Shown: positions 443-35,481 of the stretch, in pieces
Position numbering within the stretch: the first letter of the stretch is position 1
Layout of the letters: each line of letters starts with the position of its first letter
Origin: a bacterium
Lineage (GTDB): Bacteria > Zixibacteria > MSB-5A5 > WJJR01
DNA length: 36,768 nt
Assembly: GCA_021813505.1 (NCBI GenBank)
Contig: JAKAKI010000050.1
Coordinates: 1 to 36,768, forward strand
Direction of reading: 5' to 3'
Notes under the pieces: model-generated
The model's database searches: none
What the model saw: only the letters and a program-made list of their open reading frames with translations
What the model was told of the DNA's origin: nothing
Position numbers and translations under genes: made by a program

Positions 443-1204
443 CTACGGATTGCACGGATCGGCCGGCGTAGGCCCTCCGCTGAATGCATGGTCGATGAGG
501 TAGATCACGTCGAAGACGTCAGTCACTGTGTCATTGTTCACATCGCCACGTGTCGTCGGGCAGAATGGGTCATAAAGATCAGGTTCCCCGCTGAACGCAA
601 TCGCGATCTCCGCGATGACATCAAACACGTCAATGACGCCGTCGCCTCTATTTTGCGCTAGGTCGCCCTGATGGATGCAGTTGCAGGGATATTCTACTAT
701 GAAAGACGCTTCATTCGGCCCGACGCAATCCGCAACATCATTCCATGTGCCCGGGAAGGAAGCGGCACCATGTGCAAAGATCGTGAGATAATTCTCCACA
801 CCACCACTATTATTAGGTTCTCCTACGTTCCAGTTGCAATATCCAGAGCAGTCCCCATTTACGTAGAAAGTGTCGCCACAAACCCAAACCCATACACCAT
901 TGTTTTGAGGCTCGTATCCTCCGACCAAGGCCGCAATCGGAGGCGGGTTCAACGAGTCGACAATGAAGGAGTCCTCCTGGGCGGAATTAATGCAGGCCAA
1001 GTACCCGCCAAGTGCAACTGCTGAGTCTCTGCACTGTGTCCAGCAAAGCGGGGACGACATCGTGATTACCTGATACCAGTGCCCGTTGCCACCCCATTGC
1101 ACTGGAACGGTGGTCGCGGATTGACTTTCGGTCGCGGTGGCCAGGGACAGCACGACGGCAATCAGAGCGACTGCGATGTCTGCGGGATGGTTCTTTGTGG
1201 ACAC
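443..1204 (-). CDS. Secreted C-type lectin-like domain protein with dockerin-like repeats (module 1, gene D)
   Basis: A GTG start at 1204 is chosen over the ATG at 1249 because GGAGG (1211-1215) sits six bases before it and the protein then opens directly with a signal peptide (cleavage likely after ~Ala30). The product is 253 aa. Residues ~36-173 form a C-type lectin-like domain with paired Cys, an E-P-N motif (129-131) and W-N-D (154-156); in this family these coordinate calcium and sugar. Residues ~179-243 hold two dockerin type I-like repeats, GDLAQNRGDGVIDVFDVI and RGDVNNDTVTDVFDVIYLI. Dockerins normally bind cohesins, but none is visible here. It lies 100 bp downstream of the Lon-like/FG-GAP gene and is the last gene of a four-gene module repeated at 29.6-35.5 kb. 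Export to the surface or periphery is inferred; the glycan target is unknown. Confidence 0.8.
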   Translation of the reverse strand: MSTKNHPADIAVALIAVVLSLATATESQSATTVPVQWGGNGHWYQVITMSSPLCWTQCRDSAVALGGYLACINSAQEDSFIVDSLNPPPIAALVGGYEPQNNGVWVWVCGDTFYVNGDCSGYCNWNVGEPNNSGGVENYLTIFAHGAASFPGTWNDVADCVGPNEASFIVEYPCNCIHQGDLAQNRGDGVIDVFDVIAEIAIAFSGEPDLYDPFCPTTRGDVNNDTVTDVFDVIYLIDHAFSGGPTPADPCNP

Positions 1205-1304
1205 GAAACACCTCCGATTAAGCTCATTCCCCCCCGGCGAACCGCTCATCGGCTCCCGGTCTCAACCGTAAATGGGTGCATCGCGGACTTGCTGCAGAAA
1301 GATT

Positions 1305-3479
1305 CTACGGGTGGGACTGAACTCGAAGTTGCAACTCGCCGACCCAAGAGCCAGAGCACCAGTGAAGCACAGAGTCTCGGACGTCATCGGCATACTGACT
1401 CCAATCAACTGACGTAAGTCTGCCTTCCCGCACGAGGTCATTTCGGCGTTTGCGGAACTGATCGCTAAAGGTCACGCCTACCACTCGTAACGAAAAGTCC
1501 AGAGAGTAGATCGCCCGGACATCATCAGCGTGAGCGGATTCACCGACGTAGACGTTAATGATGCCCTTTGTGTTCTCTCGGACGCCTTCCGTCCCCGGGG
1601 CGTTATAGGCGTTCGCCAAGTCCAGCTTGCCAAGATCAGTGACCGGGAAGAGAGCATACTGCGCCTGACTGCCAGGCCTTACCCGGGACAGATCATAGAC
1701 TGAATCCTGATATGGCGGTGACACCCCCACGACGTTCGAGTCAAGGTCGAGAACCAGGAGGGCGGTGCAGTTCATGCGGTTATTGAAGTTCAGGAACAGT
1801 AACTCCTCACGGCCATCGGCGTCGAGGTCCTGTGTCTTGACAAACCTGCTTGCCCCAGCGTTAATGTACCACCCCAACGAATCACCACACGCATCCCACA
1901 AGCGAATGTGTGATCGGCCCGGGGAATTTCCGGCCACTTCGGTGATGATGACGGATTTTCCCGCTACACTGACAATATTAAGGTGTTCTGGGTCGTAGGA
2001 GACTCCTGCCGTGTCGCCCGGATATTGACCGCGGATGGCACAGTACCGCTTGAAGCGCAGTTGATGATCGGCGGAGAAGCAATACAGCCAGTCTCGCTGT
2101 GATGATGCTTCTGTTGTAAGCGGCATGAAGAGGACTTCGTTCATCCCGTCGCCATCCAAGTCGCGGACAACTATCAGTTCCGACCAGCCTGCCGCAGACA
2201 GTTTGCACTGGAATGGTTCGGACCATATCAGCAGGGAGTCGCGATTGCGGGCTTCCAGGCTGTTCTCAGCCTCATTGAAGCCTGCGTAGGCCGGGTTACG
2301 GTCAAACCAAGGCATGTACCGGGGAGGAATCACCAAGTAGAGCAAGAAGTACAGAGCAGCCACCAGCGCTGTCACTTCCACTGCCGGTGCCCGCTTCGCG
2401 TTCCACATCCTTCGGGCGGTGTACCCCAGCGGTGAAAGGCGTGATCCCGGCACGACACGCGGATCACCAGCCACAGTATCGAGAGTATCCGCGCCGACAA
2501 GCTCCAGCTTTCGGCCTGGACAGCGTGATTCCAGTTCGGATAGGCATTCCCACGCTCTGGTCATGTTCTCGCGGGGGACGACGAGATACCTCAGTCGCGA
2601 GAAGAACGCGCGGTCGATCTTGCGCTTGAGCGCATCGCCATCGACGGGACTGAGGTCGCCGCCGACCAAGAGTGCGCCGGAGAATGCGGCACCCGGGAGC
2701 ACCGTTACACGTTCGCGGAGGACTTCGATCCTTGCCACAGCGGCAATCGCCCCGATCGCGAACGCCACGCCCAACGAGTCGCCGGTGAATCGGGCACCCG
2801 TGGAATCGACGGCAAAGTCCAAGCGATATCGTTTCGAAAGTTGCAGGCCGTACCGCCGGTGCATGTACTCACGCGCGGCCCGCACCGAATCGCGCGCCTG
2901 CGCCAGAAAACGGTCGTCGGGCTTGGTTACCGGATTGCGGACCACGATGTCATCACTGCCCGTCTTCGCCGGTATCCTGGTCGCGGTCACGGTGAGTTTC
3001 AGAAGCCTTCCGCGGGGCGGCAGGTCGAGATCAGGAAAGTGCTCGACAAAAAGGCAGTTGAGCGCCACCGCGGCAGCACCATCGGCAGCGCCGCGTGCGG
3101 GCGATTCGTGGGCCTCATCCGCGGCCACGGAATGCAGGCACTCACTCAGGAAGTTCTGCGATGCCGTCGCGACTTGCAGTACTGCCGTCATCGCGGCCTT
3201 GTGAGCTTCCCCTCCGACACGCCCGACCCACTCCGCGAAGCTGGCGAGTTCATCGGCCTCGTCGGGAAAGAATTCCTCGGGATCCGCCAGGGCTGCCGCA
3301 TTCCCCAGCCGCGGCATGAATTGCGTGAGGTAGGAATCCGGCCCGCATGGACAGGAGGCGTCGCGCAGCAGACCGAAGAACTCCAACCCCAGTAGGATTT
3401 GAACCTCCGGCGACAGCCCCATCGCCAGACAGCGCTCCAGACGTTGCGCCGCGCGCTCAATGTCGAATATGCTGATCAC
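1305..3479 (-). CDS. Lon/S16-like peptidase domain - TM helix - FG-GAP-like membrane protein (module 1, gene C)
   Basis: 724 aa. Residues 1-~160 are helical and unassigned. Residues ~195-330 resemble the proteolytic domain of Lon (S16): GDSLGVA places Ser235 at the nucleophile, and SGALLVGGDLSPVD followed by DALKRK places Lys285 at the catalytic lysine; YLVVPREN matches Lon's ILPxEN segment. There is no AAA+ ATPase. One membrane helix (~367-385) follows a basic stretch (ARRMWNAKR), predicting the peptidase in the cytoplasm and the C-terminal half outside. That half has two DxDxDGxxE calcium-type loops (440-448, 551-559), as in FG-GAP/VCBS propellers. The start overlaps the stop of the B gene (ATGA), so translation is coupled. 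It is a diverged paralogue of the gene at 31657-34155; the last ~200 residues are the best conserved. Protease activity is inferred from motifs only. Confidence 0.7.
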   Translation of the reverse strand: MISIFDIERAAQRLERCLAMGLSPEVQILLGLEFFGLLRDASCPCGPDSYLTQFMPRLGNAAALADPEEFFPDEADELASFAEWVGRVGGEAHKAAMTAVLQVATASQNFLSECLHSVAADEAHESPARGAADGAAAVALNCLFVEHFPDLDLPPRGRLLKLTVTATRIPAKTGSDDIVVRNPVTKPDDRFLAQARDSVRAAREYMHRRYGLQLSKRYRLDFAVDSTGARFTGDSLGVAFAIGAIAAVARIEVLRERVTVLPGAAFSGALLVGGDLSPVDGDALKRKIDRAFFSRLRYLVVPRENMTRAWECLSELESRCPGRKLELVGADTLDTVAGDPRVVPGSRLSPLGYTARRMWNAKRAPAVEVTALVAALYFLLYLVIPPRYMPWFDRNPAYAGFNEAENSLEARNRDSLLIWSEPFQCKLSAAGWSELIVVRDLDGDGMNEVLFMPLTTEASSQRDWLYCFSADHQLRFKRYCAIRGQYPGDTAGVSYDPEHLNIVSVAGKSVIITEVAGNSPGRSHIRLWDACGDSLGWYINAGASRFVKTQDLDADGREELLFLNFNNRMNCTALLVLDLDSNVVGVSPPYQDSVYDLSRVRPGSQAQYALFPVTDLGKLDLANAYNAPGTEGVRENTKGIINVYVGESAHADDVRAIYSLDFSLRVVGVTFSDQFRKRRNDLVREGRLTSVDWSQYADDVRDSVLHWCSGSWVGELQLRVQSHP

Positions 3480-4297
3480 GCGAACAGATAGATATCCAGT
3501 GTGCCGGGCATACCAAAGTGGTCGAGAACCATGACTGGTTCGAGTTTCAGGACCTGGCTGTTGTTGTCGGATTGCACCGCGACGCGCAGGGGTTTGCCGG
3601 CCAGATCGGGCGCCAGCGCCACAATCTCCAACCGGAGCCGGCGGGATGTTTCTGTCGTCGACATCGAGACTTTGAGCAGGTCGTCATGCCCCGAGCGGAC
3701 GAGAGTAGAGGATTGCACTTCCTCCGGCAATACGGTGACGTTCAGTGAGAATGTCGCCGCCGGCATGACTACGGACACCTCAGGTTCGTTGCCTACGGGC
3801 CACCGCGCCGAACCAAGGTCGACACAGCCTTTGGAATCTGTCAGGTAATCCGTGGTCAATCCGGAGAGTCGGATCAGCAGTCCAGCAACCGGCTCGCCCT
3901 CGCTCGACAGCAGGTACAGTTTTTCATGCCCCGTGCTGGAATCCCATACAACTTTGACCATCCACCGACGGTCCTCGGATGCGAAAGTCGATGCCGTCGG
4001 CGTGGATGCTTCGGCTGGTCCTTCGGCAGCCAGAACGCTCTCCACCTGGGATGGAATCTCCACGAGATTGATCGGTGTTAATCTCACCGGCGGCGGGAGC
4101 ATGCGTGCGATTGTGTCCGTGGGCAGTTCACGCGCCACCGCGGCAAGGCTGGAGTAGTAAGCTCGCCGGTCAGAAACGAGCAGTTGACAGTCCTCGCATG
4201 TTTTCAAATGCTCTGCCAGGACCGGCACGTCAACACCGGTCAGACCCAGGACAAACGCGTCCCACACACGGCCCTTTGGGCAGGTACTGAGTGTCAT
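3476..4297 (-). CDS. HX3CX2C zinc-motif protein, anti-sigma-like N-terminus (module 1, gene B)
   Basis: 273 aa. Residues ~10-45 contain AEHLKTCEDCQLL, giving His30-Cys34-Cys37, the HX3CX2C arrangement of zinc anti-sigma (ZAS) domains. A linker of ~60 residues follows, then a beta-rich domain (~110-273) with MVKVVWDSSTGHEKLYLL and TDYLTDSKGCVDLG. No membrane helix or signal peptide is visible, so it should be cytoplasmic, unlike many anti-sigma factors. The matching protein at 30768-31649 shares the zinc motif position and the beta domain. The gene overlaps C by four bases and follows A after 190 bp. It could be an anti-sigma-like regulator of A, or a substrate or adaptor for the Lon-like protein; neither is shown. 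Confidence 0.6.
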   Translation of the reverse strand: MTLSTCPKGRVWDAFVLGLTGVDVPVLAEHLKTCEDCQLLVSDRRAYYSSLAAVARELPTDTIARMLPPPVRLTPINLVEIPSQVESVLAAEGPAEASTPTASTFASEDRRWMVKVVWDSSTGHEKLYLLSSEGEPVAGLLIRLSGLTTDYLTDSKGCVDLGSARWPVGNEPEVSVVMPAATFSLNVTVLPEEVQSSTLVRSGHDDLLKVSMSTTETSRRLRLEIVALAPDLAGKPLRVAVQSDNNSQVLKLEPVMVLDHFGMPGTLDIYLFA

Positions 4298-4487: not shown

Positions 4488-5513
4488 TCATTCTTCCTTG
4501 GCTCGCCATTGATCGACAAATCGCTTCCAAGCCACTTTGACCACGTATTCAAACCGTTCTCGAATGCTCTGGTCCTGGCGGTATTGATCTCTCGTTAGGC
4601 CGGGCCAAAACTCAGCCAGACATTCGTGCTGGACCGGTTCTTGTCCTATGGCCGTTAATTTCAGGAATTGCCCAGCCCCCTGCCGCATCCAACCGCATTG
4701 TTGCGGCGTCTGTCTCCCACGCTGGCAATATCCATTCAATACCGGATCGACGGCGGCAAGAGACTCCGCGATCGACCGCTCAAGTTTCAATTCAAATGCC
4801 GGATCCCGATCATGCCGTTGGGAGCGGAGTTCCCAGTCGGTCCGGTCGACCTCTTGTTCCCGAATCAGGACAGCTTGGCACAGCAAAGAGAATGGAATGA
4901 GCCCGCTGCGATTGGGCAACTCAGTGAGCAAATTCACGACTGCTTCGAAGTTCTCGACATCACTTGAGTCCGGCTGCCAACTTCGCTCTACTGCTCTCTG
5001 GACATCGTCCAGGGACACCAATTGCTTGTTGTGATTCCCTTCCGTGAGATTACGGCGCTGGACATACTCCAGACGATCCGATGGAAATCCGATTAGCAGC
5101 GAGCTGGCGCGAACCGCCTCCCGGATGCGGCGGCGTACCCTGCTGCGGGCGCGGTATCCATCGATGTCACGCCGCGCCAGCCGCCGAACTCCCGTCACGA
5201 ACACGATAGACTCCAGCCAGGACACAACGCCGGGTGGAGTGTCCTGAGGGGGGTTGTTCCGCCAGGAGCGCCCAATTTGGGACTGCGGTCCGGGCGGCTC
5301 TCCGAATACCGAGTTCAGCAACGAGATTGCCAGCGTGGCAGGATCAGTCCCCTCAACTCGCGCCGCGGAACAGAGCTCGCCTCCCAGCCGTCTTCGGGCA
5401 ATCAGACCCGCCACTCTGACCAGACTGTCGATTTCCAATGAACTGATTGACCCATCCACCCATCGATGGACCAGTTCCGAGATCTGCGCTAAGTCGAGGG
5501 CGTCTGATGACAT
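4488..5513 (-). CDS. Unrecognised cytoplasmic protein (module 1, gene A)
   Basis: 341 aa, soluble, rich in Arg and helical segments, without signal peptide or membrane helix. I do not recognise the family. Its length, order of blocks and context match the gene at 29559-30587: a short N-terminal helix, a TPP-x-x-V anchor near residue 90, a basic helical stretch (RARSRVRRRIREAV), and a C-terminal RFEYVVKVAWKRF aligning with RYKYVWEALVSRC. Because a zinc anti-sigma-like gene follows in both modules, a very diverged sigma-factor-like regulator is conceivable, but no convincing region 2 or region 4 can be read. No strong ribosome-binding site precedes the ATG, so the start is uncertain. It is divergent from glnA. 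Confidence 0.5.
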   Translation of the reverse strand: MSSDALDLAQISELVHRWVDGSISSLEIDSLVRVAGLIARRRLGGELCSAARVEGTDPATLAISLLNSVFGEPPGPQSQIGRSWRNNPPQDTPPGVVSWLESIVFVTGVRRLARRDIDGYRARSRVRRRIREAVRASSLLIGFPSDRLEYVQRRNLTEGNHNKQLVSLDDVQRAVERSWQPDSSDVENFEAVVNLLTELPNRSGLIPFSLLCQAVLIREQEVDRTDWELRSQRHDRDPAFELKLERSIAESLAAVDPVLNGYCQRGRQTPQQCGWMRQGAGQFLKLTAIGQEPVQHECLAEFWPGLTRDQYRQDQSIRERFEYVVKVAWKRFVDQWRAKEE

Positions 5514-29558: not shown

Positions 29559-30587
29559 ATGATCGACAAGTGCGATACGGCGCGAGCGGTTAGAGCGTTC
29601 CTTGATCACCCGACCGATCGCAGGGCATTCAACGATCTATTCGAGCTCTCCTCCAGGATGGCGCATTCCTACATAGCCATCCGGGTTCGCCGAGGGACTC
29701 TTCACGTTCCATCTAACGAGTTCCCTCAGTCCACTGCCATCGAGGACTGCGCCTGCGAATGTCTCGGCTCCTTGTTCGCCAGCAAACCTGGCCGGCCGTT
29801 CTACTTCATTATTGACTACTTCCGCAGCCGTATCACCGATCAAACACCTCCAGACCGAGTCCATGCGCTTCTGCAGGGTATGATCGCGGGGCACATCGAC
29901 CAGGAACTGATGCAACTCAATCCCCAAGGAGTCTCCATCAGGCGGGCCATTCTTCGCTCCATGGGGGATGATTCATTCGAGGTGCTCCGGGTCGATGGAC
30001 GCGACCATTGGGCCATTCGATCAAGTGCCGGGTCCCGGCGGGAGCACTTACCACAAGTGGACGATTCGACACTCCAGCATTTCATCCATACGGCCTGCCG
30101 CAGCTTTCCAGACATGCCACGACGATGTCGGAGCATCTTCGAACAACTCGACGGGGATGACCGCTTCCAGAATCGGCTTGAGTGCAAGAAGTTCATGCCG
30201 GCCTTGCTGAGGGTCCTCACAAACCATGACGACGCCCGGCCGTCGGCTACTTCCAACCCCCGATCGGAATACGTGCGCCGGACGGTGCAGCTACTCGCCG
30301 CCAATGCCGTCGATCTGGCAGTCGATCAGGTGCTTACAAACCAAGCCCGGAAGCGAGGGTTTTCGGAGGATGAAACAAGCACCTTCCGCCGAGCCCTGGC
30401 CAACTTGATGGACGATTTCGGCCAGGATGGCGATCATGATCTCCTGCCCGGGTACCTGAAGGAGGCCATGACCGCGTGCGACGAATCCGCCTACTTGCAG
30501 CGATACAAATACGTCTGGGAAGCGCTGGTTTCAAGATGTAAGGAACTGCTGCGGGACATGTTGCGCGAGGAGGGACTGGCGCCGTGA
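29559..30587 (+). CDS. Unrecognised cytoplasmic protein (module 2, gene A')
   Basis: 342 aa, soluble and helical, without signal or membrane segment. Family not recognised. It aligns by block order and length with the gene at 4488-5513: an N-terminal helix (FNDLFELSSRMAHSYI), an acidic helix (IEDCACECLGSLF), a TPP-x-x-V anchor near residue 96, and the C-terminal RYKYVWEALVSRC. The acidic helix faintly recalls sigma region 2 (AEDLVQEVF-type), but a region 4 helix-turn-helix is not visible. A consensus-like promoter lies upstream. It is followed after 180 bp by the zinc-motif gene, as in module 1. Similarity to gene A is low at sequence level; synteny is the stronger argument. Confidence 0.5.
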   Translation: MIDKCDTARAVRAFLDHPTDRRAFNDLFELSSRMAHSYIAIRVRRGTLHVPSNEFPQSTAIEDCACECLGSLFASKPGRPFYFIIDYFRSRITDQTPPDRVHALLQGMIAGHIDQELMQLNPQGVSIRRAILRSMGDDSFEVLRVDGRDHWAIRSSAGSRREHLPQVDDSTLQHFIHTACRSFPDMPRRCRSIFEQLDGDDRFQNRLECKKFMPALLRVLTNHDDARPSATSNPRSEYVRRTVQLLAANAVDLAVDQVLTNQARKRGFSEDETSTFRRALANLMDDFGQDGDHDLLPGYLKEAMTACDESAYLQRYKYVWEALVSRCKELLRDMLREEGLAP

Positions 30588-30640
30588 ACGGTAAATGCCC
30601 CTCAGATTGCGATGCAAGGTCGAATTCACGACCACCTGCC

Positions 30641-30680
30641 CCCCTCTCCCTCTTCGGGAGAGGGGCTGGGGGTGAGGGGC
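30641..30680. repeat. Palindromic repeat between A' and B'
   Basis: CCCCTCTCCC (30641-30650) pairs perfectly with GGGAGAGGGG (30656-30665) around TCTTC, followed by CTGGGGGTGAGGGGC. This looks like a common dispersed bacterial repeat. It lies in the A'-B' gap, so the long frame that reads through it into B' probably does not mark the real start. Confidence 0.65.
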
Positions 30681-30767
30681 GACGCCGGGACCGCGACTGA
30701 CATTTTCAACAATGACACACCTTGGCCGCTACTTACAATGATGTCTGGCGATCAAAGGGCAGGGACC

Positions 30768-31649
30768 ATGCACCCAACTCCGATTGAATTGAGGCAGTTC
30801 GCCAACTCGGGACCTGATGCGCGCACCCAGGATGCTGAGGTCAGCCGACACCTCGCAGCATGCCCGCTGTGCCGCGAGTACGTCGAGCTGATTGCGGAAT
30901 GGAACCGAGGATCAAACTCCATTTCAGCACCCTCTCCCTCGGCGCGAGTAGTTGCCGAGGACGTGTTCGCCGGGGCCGTCGACGCCGCCAATCGTGTTGT
31001 CCCACATATCATTGAGTTGATCCCCCTGGCGTTCCAGAGTGAGCCAGCTCCCGTCCTATTAGCTGCCGATGGTCAGACCCCGGACCGCCCTGGTGACGGA
31101 CTGGAGCATGCAGCAACTCTTTATGCGGCGGATCCCGAGATGGTGTTGCGCGTTATGCGGGATCGCCGAACCGGTGAGGAATTGCTGCATCTGATTGGAA
31201 CCGACCCGGACCTCACATCCAACGTCCTGATCCACATCGTTGAACCGTCGATGGATTTCATGACTGACGGTCAGGGTGTAGCACACCTGGGTCCACACCA
31301 CTTGCAAAATCCCGAATCGCTCCACTGGCAGGTTCGTCTGCCAGAGGCCGTGTTTGCGCTCTCGCCTCTGCAATACAATCCGGAGCAGCCGGGAGCCAGA
31401 CGTGGGTTCGAACTGGAGGCCGACGCTGATAATCGTATCCGCGTAGAACTGGAGAGCCGCACAGAGGGAATCATGCTTCACCTGACGCTCCTGCGCATCG
31501 GGGGTAGCGAGTCTCTCCAGCGGGCGCGCCTCGTCATCACCCAGGGAGCATCAAGGTCGCAGACTGTCGAGACCAAGGGACCGGCGCCATGCACTGTTAC
31601 CGGTCTGTCGGCGACGGAACCTATCGGGATCCGGGTCTTTGCGGAATAG
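30768..31649 (+). CDS. HX3CX2C zinc-motif protein, anti-sigma-like N-terminus (module 2, gene B')
   Basis: The ATG at 30768 is preferred: AGGGCAGGGA precedes it, and the zinc motif then falls at residue 28, matching residue 30 of gene B. Starts at 30738, 30741 or 30612 are possible but cross a repeat. The 293-aa product has SRHLAACPLCREYV (His28-Cys32-Cys35), a linker, and a beta-rich domain whose RVMRDRRTGEELLHLI and MDFMTDGQGVAHLG align with gene B. No membrane segment. It ends eight bases before C'. A cytoplasmic regulator or protease substrate is inferred from context. Confidence 0.6.
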   Translation: MHPTPIELRQFANSGPDARTQDAEVSRHLAACPLCREYVELIAEWNRGSNSISAPSPSARVVAEDVFAGAVDAANRVVPHIIELIPLAFQSEPAPVLLAADGQTPDRPGDGLEHAATLYAADPEMVLRVMRDRRTGEELLHLIGTDPDLTSNVLIHIVEPSMDFMTDGQGVAHLGPHHLQNPESLHWQVRLPEAVFALSPLQYNPEQPGARRGFELEADADNRIRVELESRTEGIMLHLTLLRIGGSESLQRARLVITQGASRSQTVETKGPAPCTVTGLSATEPIGIRVFAE

Positions 31650-31656
31650 CAATCAG

Positions 31657-34155
31657 ATGAATCATCCTAACCTTCCACGAAGCGCCATTTCCCCTCTGGC
31701 GTTCACCCTCGCCTATCAGCAGTATCGCAGCGAAGCATCGAGGAATCCCTTTGCCGATACGCGCTTACTCACGGCCGCACGATTCTGGAGAGCCAACGAA
31801 GCGGCGCTGCACAGTCCTGCGTATGCGACTTACCGGCTGGAGGACATCCCGCCAGTCTTGGACGCACTGAATCCAGATCAACTCGACGACCTCCGCCCCT
31901 CGGAGTTGGAGGAAGTGGCTAGGTTTGTTGAGCGGGCGGGATTGGTGGTTTCATATTCCCCGCCTAAGGATCCGCCGACTTCTGATTCGGATGACGTTGG
32001 AGCAACGCAGTCATCCAAATCCGCGAAAATCTGGGACCACGCCGCCAGGAAGTGGCTCTACATTGGCGAAGCATCAAACGCCGTCGACGCCCTTCTTCGG
32101 GGAGGGCTTCCTTTCGTTATTGCCACGGATGAACTCGCCTCAATCCTCGCGGACTGCAGTGCCAGCGACGCTACGGAAATCCCTGGGATTATCGCAACAC
32201 AGGTGGAATCATCGCATCCCGCGTTGGCCCACTGGTTGCGCGCGTTCGAGGCCGCATGGAAAACTCAGCGCGAGGGCGGTGACGCAAATCGGGCCCAGTG
32301 CGTTCTGGTCGAGTATGACGCCAACGGCCTGCCCGTGCGCGGGCGTTTGCGCCTCCTGGAAGGAAAAGTCGAGACACTCAAACGCGACGCCGAGTCGGAC
32401 GAAGTCATTTTCCATCATCAGGTGAAGAGCCCCGACGATCCGTTCGTGGGGACGGTGTACGCGGCATTCGAGGCGCTTCGAAGTCTAACTTTCTCAAGCC
32501 AGCGACGCCGCCTGAGTATCGGCTCCAATCTCGAGCCGGTGGCCGACCCGTGTCATCCTGAGGAGCGAAGCGACGAAGGATCTGCTGTCCGTCCCCGGCC
32601 CAATGAACGCCCCTATAGGAACAAAGCCGATCCGCGCTACCGCGGCCGTTTCACCTTCAATCGTGACGGAGTCGAGATGTATTCCGGCGACTCGATCGGA
32701 TTGTCAGCCTTTGCAGTCGCCTTTGGCGACCAATGGAGCCACGAAGTCCGCGCGGAGCGCCGACTGATCGGCCAGACTGTCGCGTTCACAGGAGGAATCG
32801 GCCCAAACGGTTCTCTCCAGCCAATTTCTGCCGACTCGCTGGCACTCAAAGTCGAGCGGGCGTTCCATTCGCCAATCACACACCTTGTTGTCCCCGAATC
32901 CAATAGAAAGGCCGTGGAGGGTGCGGCCGAGCTCTTGCGGGAGGCCCACCCGCGCCGCCGACTTCACATCATCGCCGTCGAGCGGCCACCAGACATCATA
33001 GCCGACAAGAACATCTTCCATGCCGAGAAGCTCTGGCCCGGCGAATTCGTTGTCCGCAAGGCGGCAAGGTATTCGCGGAGCGTGAAGGTGCAGGTGCCGG
33101 TACTGGTGGTGCTCGGGTACTTGCTACTGAGTCTCATCTACCCGAAGGCGTGGATCGGTTTTGACAGAGAACCAAGAAGTCTCCGGTTAACAGGGCATGG
33201 ATTCGTGGCCCAGAATTCCGATGGTGACCGCCTGTGGGAGAAGGAGTTCGACTGCGACTGCGATACCACTAAATCATTGTGGACGGTTGGGGACCTCGAT
33301 GCTGACGGTCATGCGGAAGTGGCCTACCTCCTGAATAACAGTGAGCAGCGTCTCTGCGACCTCATCGGAACTCTCTTCGTTTACGACCACAACGGGATGG
33401 AACGATTCCGCCGACGCTGCTGCATCAAGAATGAGTACCCGGGGGACACGGTGTTTCCTCAGCAGTACACGATGAGCGGGTTGTCGATGATTCGAATGAG
33501 GGGCAGGCCCTTGATCATGACATGTGTAGTGAATTCTTACCCGGCGCGAAGTCACATACGATTTTGGACAGCGCGGGGAGACTCGCTTGGGTGGTACATA
33601 AACGCCGGATACGCTGCGGGCAATGGATTGTGGGTAATCTCGCCCGAGCGCGACGTTTTGTATGGCACGGGAATCAACAACCGCGTTGCTTCGGCGTGCC
33701 TGTTTGCGATTTCAGCCGATTCGAGCTATGGGGCATCACCTCCGTACACCGACTCAACATTGGATCTTTCTAAGGTGCACCGTGGAAATCAGCTTCACTA
33801 TCTCATCTTTCCACAAACCCCCCTCTGCCGGGTGCGCGCCATCTACAATGGCGTGTTTGGGATCTTCGCCGAGGCCGGAGGTGTAATCCGGGTCGACGTC
33901 GATGAGTTCGGCGGACAGCGAAACACGGGCGACTCAACCGCTCCCGTAAGCTACTATCTCAATTTGGACTGCCAACTACTGAGAGTACGTTGCACAGACA
34001 ATTTCATCGCAGCTTGGAACAACAGAGTAGCGCGGGGTGAACTCTCGGCAGTCGATTGGAGTACATACACCGATCAACTGATGGGCAACGTCACTCATTG
34101 GACAGACTCGGGATGGGTGACTGAATCACAGCTACGTGCGGTAACCGTTCGATAG
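31657..34155 (+). CDS. Lon/S16-like peptidase domain - TM helix - FG-GAP-like membrane protein (module 2, gene C')
   Basis: 832 aa from ATG 31657 (a TTG at 31639 would overlap B'). The N-terminal ~250 residues are longer than in C and include a polar linker (PPKDPPTSDSDDVGATQ). The Lon-like domain (~330-435) has YSGDSIGLS with Ser346, TGGIGPNGSLQPIS, then SLALKVERAF with Lys398, and HLVVPESN. One membrane helix (~479-495) follows basic residues (RKAARYSRSVK), so the C-terminal half should be outside; it has one DxDxDGxxE loop (546-554). The blocks RSHIRFWTARGDSLGWYINA and VDWSTYTD closely match gene C. A palindromic repeat is inserted in frame near residues 298-310, in a stretch of ~40 residues absent from C. 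Confidence 0.7.
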   Translation: MNHPNLPRSAISPLAFTLAYQQYRSEASRNPFADTRLLTAARFWRANEAALHSPAYATYRLEDIPPVLDALNPDQLDDLRPSELEEVARFVERAGLVVSYSPPKDPPTSDSDDVGATQSSKSAKIWDHAARKWLYIGEASNAVDALLRGGLPFVIATDELASILADCSASDATEIPGIIATQVESSHPALAHWLRAFEAAWKTQREGGDANRAQCVLVEYDANGLPVRGRLRLLEGKVETLKRDAESDEVIFHHQVKSPDDPFVGTVYAAFEALRSLTFSSQRRRLSIGSNLEPVADPCHPEERSDEGSAVRPRPNERPYRNKADPRYRGRFTFNRDGVEMYSGDSIGLSAFAVAFGDQWSHEVRAERRLIGQTVAFTGGIGPNGSLQPISADSLALKVERAFHSPITHLVVPESNRKAVEGAAELLREAHPRRRLHIIAVERPPDIIADKNIFHAEKLWPGEFVVRKAARYSRSVKVQVPVLVVLGYLLLSLIYPKAWIGFDREPRSLRLTGHGFVAQNSDGDRLWEKEFDCDCDTTKSLWTVGDLDADGHAEVAYLLNNSEQRLCDLIGTLFVYDHNGMERFRRRCCIKNEYPGDTVFPQQYTMSGLSMIRMRGRPLIMTCVVNSYPARSHIRFWTARGDSLGWYINAGYAAGNGLWVISPERDVLYGTGINNRVASACLFAISADSSYGASPPYTDSTLDLSKVHRGNQLHYLIFPQTPLCRVRAIYNGVFGIFAEAGGVIRVDVDEFGGQRNTGDSTAPVSYYLNLDCQLLRVRCTDNFIAAWNNRVARGELSAVDWSTYTDQLMGNVTHWTDSGWVTESQLRAVTVR
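32552..32584 (+). repeat. Palindromic repeat inserted in frame in gene C'
   Basis: The DNA encoding CHPEERSDEGS starts with TCATCCTGAG and ends CGAAGGATCT, with ATCCT/AGGAT complementary ends and an internal GAGCGAAGCGA. This is the well-known dispersed repeat that reads HPEERSDEGS when translated. It keeps the frame and lies in a segment without counterpart in gene C, just before the Lon-like core. Confidence 0.75.
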
Positions 34156-34281
34156 CATTTCCACAAATTCCCCCGTTCGTTCCTACTACTATCCAGAGAA
34201 TGAGGATCGTGCGGATGGTGGCACCTGCGCCACTCCCATCCGGGTACGGCAACAGGAGGCGCAAATCGGGAGGATTCGAAC

Positions 34282-35481
34282 ATGAACGCACTTGGCAGTC
34301 ACATTCAAGCTAAGGCAGCCATACCATCCGGACCAGCGCGGCGACACTCCGTGGTTACATATGTCGCAGCAACATTTATTTGCGCTACGCTTATTGTGTC
34401 ATCCTCAGTCTCGGCGCAGACATCCCATTCCCGCTGCACTTTCGATCCCGGTGCGACGACACCGAGTTGCGTAGCAGTCACACCAGACGGCACGGAGCTC
34501 TGGGTCGGGTCAGGTACAGGAGTCGTGACCGTGGTCCGTCTCAGCGATCACGCGGTCGTCGCTACGATTCCAGTAGGATATGGAGCGCTGGAAATCGCAA
34601 TCAGCCCAGATGGTGCCTATGCGATTGTCACCAATACCGTAAACGGGTTCAACTCAACATGGATCGCCACGGCGACTCGCACCGTCGTGTGCAATATCTC
34701 CGGCGGCGTGGATCCTAGTGGTGTCGTCTTCACGCCAGATGGCGATACTGCCCTAATCGTTGCCCATTGGTCCGGAATCCTTCAAGGTGTGTCCAAGGGC
34801 GCGTGCGCGGCCGACTACACAATCGGGGGGCTGGGAAATGGCTGCTACGATGTCGTTGTGACTCCAGACGGACGCTTCGCCTATGCAGCAGGCCGCGCAA
34901 CCGGACCAAATCCGGGCCCCTATGTCACCTACAAAGTCGACCTCCCCGCTCGCGCCGTGGTTGGCACGGTGCCGACAACTGGCGAGGGTATCGACATAAC
35001 CCCCGACGGGAGTTTCATCCTAGCTTGCGGGACAAATACCGCGAATCCTTCCGATCATTATGTGCGAGTGGTTGCTACTGCGACTGACGCCGTTGTGGAC
35101 AGCGTCTTCATTGGCGGATTTCCCAATAAAGTTAGGATTTCTCCTGACGGCCTCTATGCGTACGTGACGATGCAGAACGACAGTTCAATGGCCGTGTTGT
35201 CAATTGCCGATAGGGCGGTTATTGCTGTGCTCCCTGTTGGGCATAAGCCTAATGGCGTCACAGTTTCCCCTGATGGACTGCACATCTTCGTCGCGAATTA
35301 TGACAGCGATTGCATAACGGAGATTACGACCAGCTGCGTCTGGATTCCGGCGGCCCCGCCGTGCATGGACAGGAAGTCAGACCTCAACTGCGACGCGGTC
35401 GAAGATGTATTCGACGTGATCTATCTCATCGACTACGTGTTCGGTGGTGGTCCTCAGCGCGTCGCGTGCCCGCAAGAATAA
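34282..35481 (+). CDS. Secreted YVTN-type beta-propeller with dockerin-like repeat (module 2, gene D')
   Basis: 399 aa, GGGAGG upstream of the ATG. A long N-region and hydrophobic stretch end in VSAQ (signal cleavage ~45). Residues ~50-350 hold repeated VxPDGxxxxV units (VAVTPDGTELWVG, ISPDGAYAIVTN, VTPDGRFAYAAG, ISPDGLYAYVTM, VSPDGLHIFVAN), typical of YVTN/cytochrome-D1-type seven-bladed propellers. Residues ~362-399 carry one dockerin-like repeat, DLNCDAVEDVFDVIYLIDYVFGG, almost the same as the second repeat of gene D. The gene lies 126 bp after C', in the same position as D in module 1. The propeller may bind ligand or protein outside the cell; target unknown. Confidence 0.82.
   Translation: MNALGSHIQAKAAIPSGPARRHSVVTYVAATFICATLIVSSSVSAQTSHSRCTFDPGATTPSCVAVTPDGTELWVGSGTGVVTVVRLSDHAVVATIPVGYGALEIAISPDGAYAIVTNTVNGFNSTWIATATRTVVCNISGGVDPSGVVFTPDGDTALIVAHWSGILQGVSKGACAADYTIGGLGNGCYDVVVTPDGRFAYAAGRATGPNPGPYVTYKVDLPARAVVGTVPTTGEGIDITPDGSFILACGTNTANPSDHYVRVVATATDAVVDSVFIGGFPNKVRISPDGLYAYVTMQNDSSMAVLSIADRAVIAVLPVGHKPNGVTVSPDGLHIFVANYDSDCITEITTSCVWIPAAPPCMDRKSDLNCDAVEDVFDVIYLIDYVFGGGPQRVACPQE

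Follow-up and report, generated by a model that had tools for sequence, protein, structure and literature searches.

The window, by which we mean the whole stretch of DNA analysed here (36,768 nucleotides of one contig from a bacterium of the phylum Candidatus Zixiibacteriota), carries four neighbouring genes, named A, B, C and D, and a second complete A-B-C-D cassette lies at its other end (29559-35481), in the opposite orientation (Table 1). Gene C encodes a protein in which the sequence blocks GDSLG, DALKRK and VVPREN are all found, together with a single hydrophobic segment and two DxDxDGxxE loops. A domain-model search found no match to an AAA+ domain in C or in 30 homologues, and no PDZ domain was matched in these proteins either. 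A preliminary description, made from the sequence alone, had reported the open reading frame, the motif blocks, one membrane helix, the DxDxDGxxE loops and the lack of an AAA+ domain, all of which held. The architecture that it proposed, a Lon peptidase domain (P-domain) without AAA+, located inside the cell and joined through one helix to a calcium-type outer domain, is likewise supported. Four copies of C are present in this genome, two in the window and two on other contigs. No NCBIfam or PADLOC model matches the window proteins; membership of a known defence system was considered and set aside for want of any PADLOC match among them.

Table 1. Positions of the cassette genes and of the features of gene C within the window.
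Feature	Position	Strand	Description
Gene D	443..1249	-	C-type-lectin-like secreted protein, dockerin-like tail
Gene C	1305..3479	-	724 aa, GTG start; helical N-terminal region, Lon-type peptidase, membrane helix, FG-GAP outer domain
Outer FG-GAP-type domain of C, residues 390-724	1308..2312	-	FG-GAP_3 in 13/30 members; occurs on histidine kinases too
Calcium-type loop DLDADGREE of C, residues 551-559	1803..1829	-	Sequence motif
Calcium-type loop DLDGDGMNE of C, residues 440-448	2136..2162	-	Acidic positions invariant in 11 Lon- and histidine kinase-type proteins
Membrane helix of C, residues 366-384	2328..2384	-	Hydrophobic segment after peptidase, 38/38
Lon P-domain core of C, residues about 189-340	2460..2915	-	AlphaFold2 and Foldseek, hhalign
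Catalytic Lys287 codon of C (second K of DALKRK)	2619..2621	-	K in 50/50 homologues
Catalytic Ser235 codon of C (GDSLG)	2775..2777	-	S in 50/50 homologues
Gene B	3476..4297	-	Anti-sigma-like; zinc motif H30-x3-C34-x2-C37, Ala90-Ala91; 4-base overlap with C
Gene A	4488..5513	-	Mostly helical family, unknown fold; slot of ECF sigma factor in other phyla
Gene A'	29559..30587	+	Second cassette
Gene B'	30612..31649	+	Zinc motif HLAACPLC; LAA motif
Gene C'	31639..34155	+	Ser352, Lys404, spacing 52; membrane helix 482-500
Gene D'	34282..35481	+	Beta-propeller, dockerin-like tail

Computation shows that C belongs to the Lon P-domain fold (peptidase family S16) and carries a conserved Ser-Lys dyad; its proteolytic activity is an inference. 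A profile built from three sequences, C and two of its paralogues, retrieves the genome's own Lon and also Lon proteins of the PDB (E 2e-4), a 30-sequence profile of the C family matches LonB of A. fulgidus (E 7.5e-6), and a cross-phylum profile of eight sequences gives a Lon match at 4.1e-8. When the C family was compared by hhalign with an alignment of the Lon proteins of the phylum, the match stood at 96.3% (E 1.7e-9). With the Pfam model Lon_C, C itself does not attain the cut-off of 21.1 bits, which is passed by a paralogue (26.8) and by a distant homologue (31.5). The structural comparison with the Lon P-domain that had been suggested in the preliminary description gave a Lon-like fold: residues 1-350 of C, modelled with AlphaFold2 from a four-sequence alignment (pLDDT 77, pTM 0.79), have Lon proteins as all of their best 50 Foldseek matches in the PDB, and the E. 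coli Lon P-domain is matched with a TM-score of 0.79, normalised to the target. This is a model, our structure models rest on four sequences each, and the distance between Ser235 and Lys287 was not determined. Because the profile, hhalign and structural matches all point to Lon, the likeness is not one of chance.

The dyad had been assigned beforehand to Ser235 and Lys285; the serine held and the lysine failed. Lys285 is a lysine in only 9 of the 38 phylum homologues and is ruled out as the catalytic residue, whereas Ser235 and Lys287 are invariant in all 38, and still in 50 of 50 after the addition of 12 homologues from outside the phylum. Once Lys287 is taken as the lysine of the dyad, C, C' and all 38 phylum homologues have one and the same Ser-Lys spacing, 52, and the earlier discrepancy between C (50) and C' (52) vanishes. 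An alignment of eight proteins, sharing 16-21% identity with the first of them, retains only 12 invariant columns, the serine and the lysine included. In the hhalign alignment Lys287 pairs with the second lysine of the LKEK-type motif of Lon; its counterpart is what we take to be K722 of E. coli, counting from S679 in the E. coli sequence, and the numbering of the E. coli Lon catalytic dyad is that of PMC2605481. The idea that C' and one paralogue (L003) had lost the dyad was considered and dropped, the catalytic lysine being the second of LKEK, 43 residues past S679. Three residues beyond the catalytic lysine of C lies Arg290 (window 2610-2612), an arginine in 46 of 50 homologues; a role in activation or substrate binding is possible.

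The orientation of C in the membrane, with the peptidase in the cytosol and the FG-GAP domain outside, is shown by computation through charge and through a domain swap. The hydrophobic segment follows the peptidase in all 38 homologues, and in 36 of these its N-terminal flank is the richer in lysine and arginine, so that the positive-inside argument put forward earlier for an internal peptidase held; there is no hydrophobic segment at the N-terminus. The stronger argument comes from seven histidine kinases of the same phylum (L074, L075, L076, L077, L139, L140 and L141, in genomes G102, G103, G107, G108, G121 and G122), which have the same membrane helix and outer domain as C. Their order is histidine-kinase ATPase domain, membrane helix, then FG-GAP outer domain with the shared invariant acidic loop; the match to HATPase_c was tested for three of them and the others were read by eye. 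Since the kinase ATPase works in the cytosol, the outer domain must lie outside and the peptidase of C in the cytosol, and since the outer domain is also found on histidine kinases, it is best seen as a sensor module. Response regulators of the NtrC type adjoin the kinases in three loci (L075, L140 and L141; family match tested for L075). In L075 the gene after that of the kinase encodes a small protein, secreted and ending in a dockerin-like tail, and the gene of the NtrC-type regulator comes next. Neither A nor full-length B is present in any of the histidine-kinase genomes carrying the outer domain. The cytosolic output thus consists of a kinase and a response regulator in one case, and of a protease, B and A in the case of C.

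Protein B, in which no membrane helix was found, contains a HxxxCxxC motif whose residues (H30, C34 and C37) are invariant in 30 of 30 members, as is the pair Ala90-Ala91. Among PDB structures the B profile best matches anti-sigma domains, those of RslA, RsiW and DdvA (E 8e-4 to 9e-3), and 11 of 30 members match zf-HC2, at E values up to 0.1. The motif is shown by computation; that B is an anti-sigma-like inhibitor is inferred, as is any binding of a sigma factor by it. The preliminary description had guessed that B is the substrate of C, a proposal strengthened by the anti-sigma-type zinc motif and by the ECF sigma factors that neighbour B in two other lineages, although cleavage itself remains an inference. 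The invariant Ala90-Ala91 pair (window 4025-4030), flanked by the zinc motif on one side and by a carboxypeptidase-regulatory-like region on the other, could be where B is cut.

The association of A, B and C is shown across the phylum, in which the A-B-C-D cassette occurs in about a quarter of the genomes (33 of 132), and four times in the genome studied here. Of the 132 genomes, 38 have gene A, 35 have full-length B and 33 have C; A and B occur together in 35, A and C in 32, and B and C in 31. All three co-occurrences are significant (Fisher p about 2e-23 or lower, uncorrected for relatedness); several of the exceptions are contig ends, and the genomes surveyed are mostly in many contigs. In one locus (L130, genome G117) A and B are kept, C is absent and the downstream genes resemble RHS/YD-repeat proteins; the cassette there is apparently broken. 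A search of viral contigs returned one bacterial-looking locus (L129), with the full cassette on an 83-kb contig classed as viral in IMG/VR, beside a restriction-type helicase gene; the contig is probably bacterial. A plasmid search returned no relatives. The product of the gene after C is in most cases a secreted protein: among the 31 loci with such a gene, it ends in a T9SS-type tail in 15 and in a dockerin-like tail in 8 (read by eye), or 23 of 31 combined, and D and D' of the window both end in a DVFDVIYLID tail.

The nature of A, which represents a widespread family, is less clear. No Pfam match to sigma-70 regions 2 and 4 was found in 27 members of the family, hhalign gave no match to them, and a structural search with the model of A, which is poor (pTM 0.36), found no matching fold. 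The possibility that A is itself an ECF sigma factor is therefore unsupported by Pfam, by hhalign with controls and by the fold search. Outside the phylum, a search of 386 relatives recovered the full A-B-C-D cassette in G301, while G229, G367 and G279 have forms that have diverged; more members are present in the two small phyla to which G367 and G279 belong. A-like genes persist in G229, G389 and G390. In two genomes A is absent beside B and C and an ECF sigma factor stands there, the gene order being C, ECF sigma and B in G367, and ECF sigma, B, C and D in G391 (L154). These sigma factors score 49.5 and 36.8 bits against a Pfam cut-off of 25.7 for sigma-70 region 4, and the B proteins of G367 and G391 are recognised by the B profile with E values of 8e-10 and 2e-21. 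Gene C of G367 is split by an in-frame stop (L145, 5721-5723), reflecting either a pseudogene or a sequence error. The replacement of A by an ECF sigma factor is shown, in two loci only, each from a single genome, and it places A in the slot of a sigma factor. It is mainly for this reason that we regard B as an anti-sigma-like inhibitor and A as an output regulator held by B, which is an inference and not a demonstration.

On balance we favour, with moderate confidence, a reading in which C is a single-pass transmembrane receptor-protease that cuts B to free A; the peptidase activity, the substrate and the signal are all inferred. The FG-GAP domain, propeller-like and outside the cytoplasm, would sense a ligand or the state of the envelope, the identity of the signal being a matter of inference. 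Signalling through the membrane helix would then switch on the cytosolic Ser235/Lys287 peptidase, perhaps by oligomerisation, and activated C would cut the soluble, zinc-containing B, plausibly in the linker with Ala90-Ala91. Cleavage of B would free A, the putative output regulator, which would in turn switch on genes such as that of the secreted protein D, a target that is equally inferred. The reading is limited by the absence of activity data, by the failure to recognise A as a sigma factor and by the existence of Lon-fold proteins that are not proteases.

Three other explanations may be envisaged. In the first, which we consider unlikely, the Lon-like domain of C is a non-cleaving scaffold within a receptor, and B is held and released by binding only, in a partner switch. 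RadA and ComM/YifB, whose Lon-fold domains are not known as proteases, match the same Pfam model in this genome, and the overlap of genes B and C suggests a stoichiometric complex; B could act through partner switching in place of cleavage. Against a scaffold, the dyad serine and lysine are invariant in all 50 homologues, which come from several phyla and differ over most of the domain. The second explanation, also unlikely, holds that C is an active protease on another target, such as A or a broader group of proteins, with B as its adaptor. It draws on the fact that A is not recognisable as a sigma factor, which leaves the sigma/anti-sigma logic unproven for the window; against it stand the zinc motif of B, the anti-sigma factors that are its best PDB matches, and the occurrence of B and C with an ECF sigma factor and without A in G367 and G391. 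The third, that the peptidase of C lies outside the cytoplasm and processes envelope proteins, as proposed for YlbL/DdcP of B. subtilis, a membrane-anchored, AAA+-free Lon-domain protease thought to act outside (PMC6051672), is very unlikely given the charge bias in 36 of 38 homologues, the same helix and outer domain following a cytosol-acting kinase ATPase domain, the lack of an N-terminal hydrophobic segment in C and the solubility of the linked partner B.

The receptor-protease reading resembles a type III CRISPR system in which the cutting of an anti-sigma factor by a Lon domain is proven: CalpL, once its sensor domain is engaged, cuts CalpT and frees CalpS (PMC11417357, PMC12751052). Like C, CalpL joins a Lon-type peptidase with a sensor domain. 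It is linked to an anti-sigma and a sigma factor, where the cassette of the window has the anti-sigma-like B and the non-sigma A, an ECF sigma factor being present only in G367 and G391. CalpL senses cyclic tetra-adenylate through a SAVED domain, whereas in C a membrane helix leads to an outer FG-GAP domain; no SAVED domain was matched in the C family, where the FG-GAP domain takes its place. The CalpL system is linked to CRISPR and no such link was seen in the window. The partner also differs, being the sigma factor CalpS in one system and the non-sigma protein A in the phylum of C.

Other known proteins share some of these features. YlbL/DdcP of Bacillus subtilis is a membrane-anchored Lon-type Ser-Lys peptidase without AAA+ (PMC6051672), so that membrane-anchored AAA+-free Lon-like proteases were already known and the preliminary description, which knew of no protein with such an architecture, has to be corrected on novelty; the YlbL peptidase is, however, thought to lie outside. 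YlbL has an N-terminal helix, then a PDZ domain and the putatively extracellular peptidase, whereas C shows the reverse order, with its helix (366-384) after the peptidase, and no PDZ domain. No activity was seen with YlbL that had been purified lacking the helix (PMC6051672), which calls for care in designing assays on C. The ATP-dependent Lon proteases (LonA/LonB) carry in the same chain the AAA+ ATPase that C lacks. In the RsgI/SigI systems of Clostridium thermocellum, sensing of the outside is coupled to a sigma factor's control over secreted proteins of the dockerin type; their anti-sigma factor itself bears the outer domain, and in the C cassette it is on the protease, with B soluble. 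In a survey of S16 architectures from 2008, the partners are AAA+, sigma-54-activator, Mg-chelatase, DnaB-type and PDZ, with no combination of a membrane helix with FG-GAP (PMC2605481). Neither the A-B-C-D cassette nor such a receptor-protease was found described in the open-licence literature searched, subscription papers being mostly outside its scope, and C may possibly represent a new class of receptor.

Bacteria convey outside signals to anti-sigma factors mostly through serial proteases, or through a sensor placed on the anti-sigma factor. In C, the sensor and the cytosolic protease appear to be joined in one molecule, and since histidine kinases carry this sensor as well, outputs have seemingly been exchanged by domain shuffling. 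A bolder reading, which we could as readily see refuted as confirmed, is that of a new class of one-protein transmembrane signalling, in which a receptor with an AAA+-free Lon-type protease at its cytosolic end, able over evolution to trade places with a histidine kinase behind a shared outer sensor, would directly cut a soluble anti-sigma-like partner and, in this phylum, release an undescribed type of regulator, A. The C cassette extends the theme of AAA-free Lon proteases and anti-sigma factors beyond CRISPR and offers a testable single-step signalling device, and with A this little-studied phylum seems to hold a class of regulator as yet unknown.
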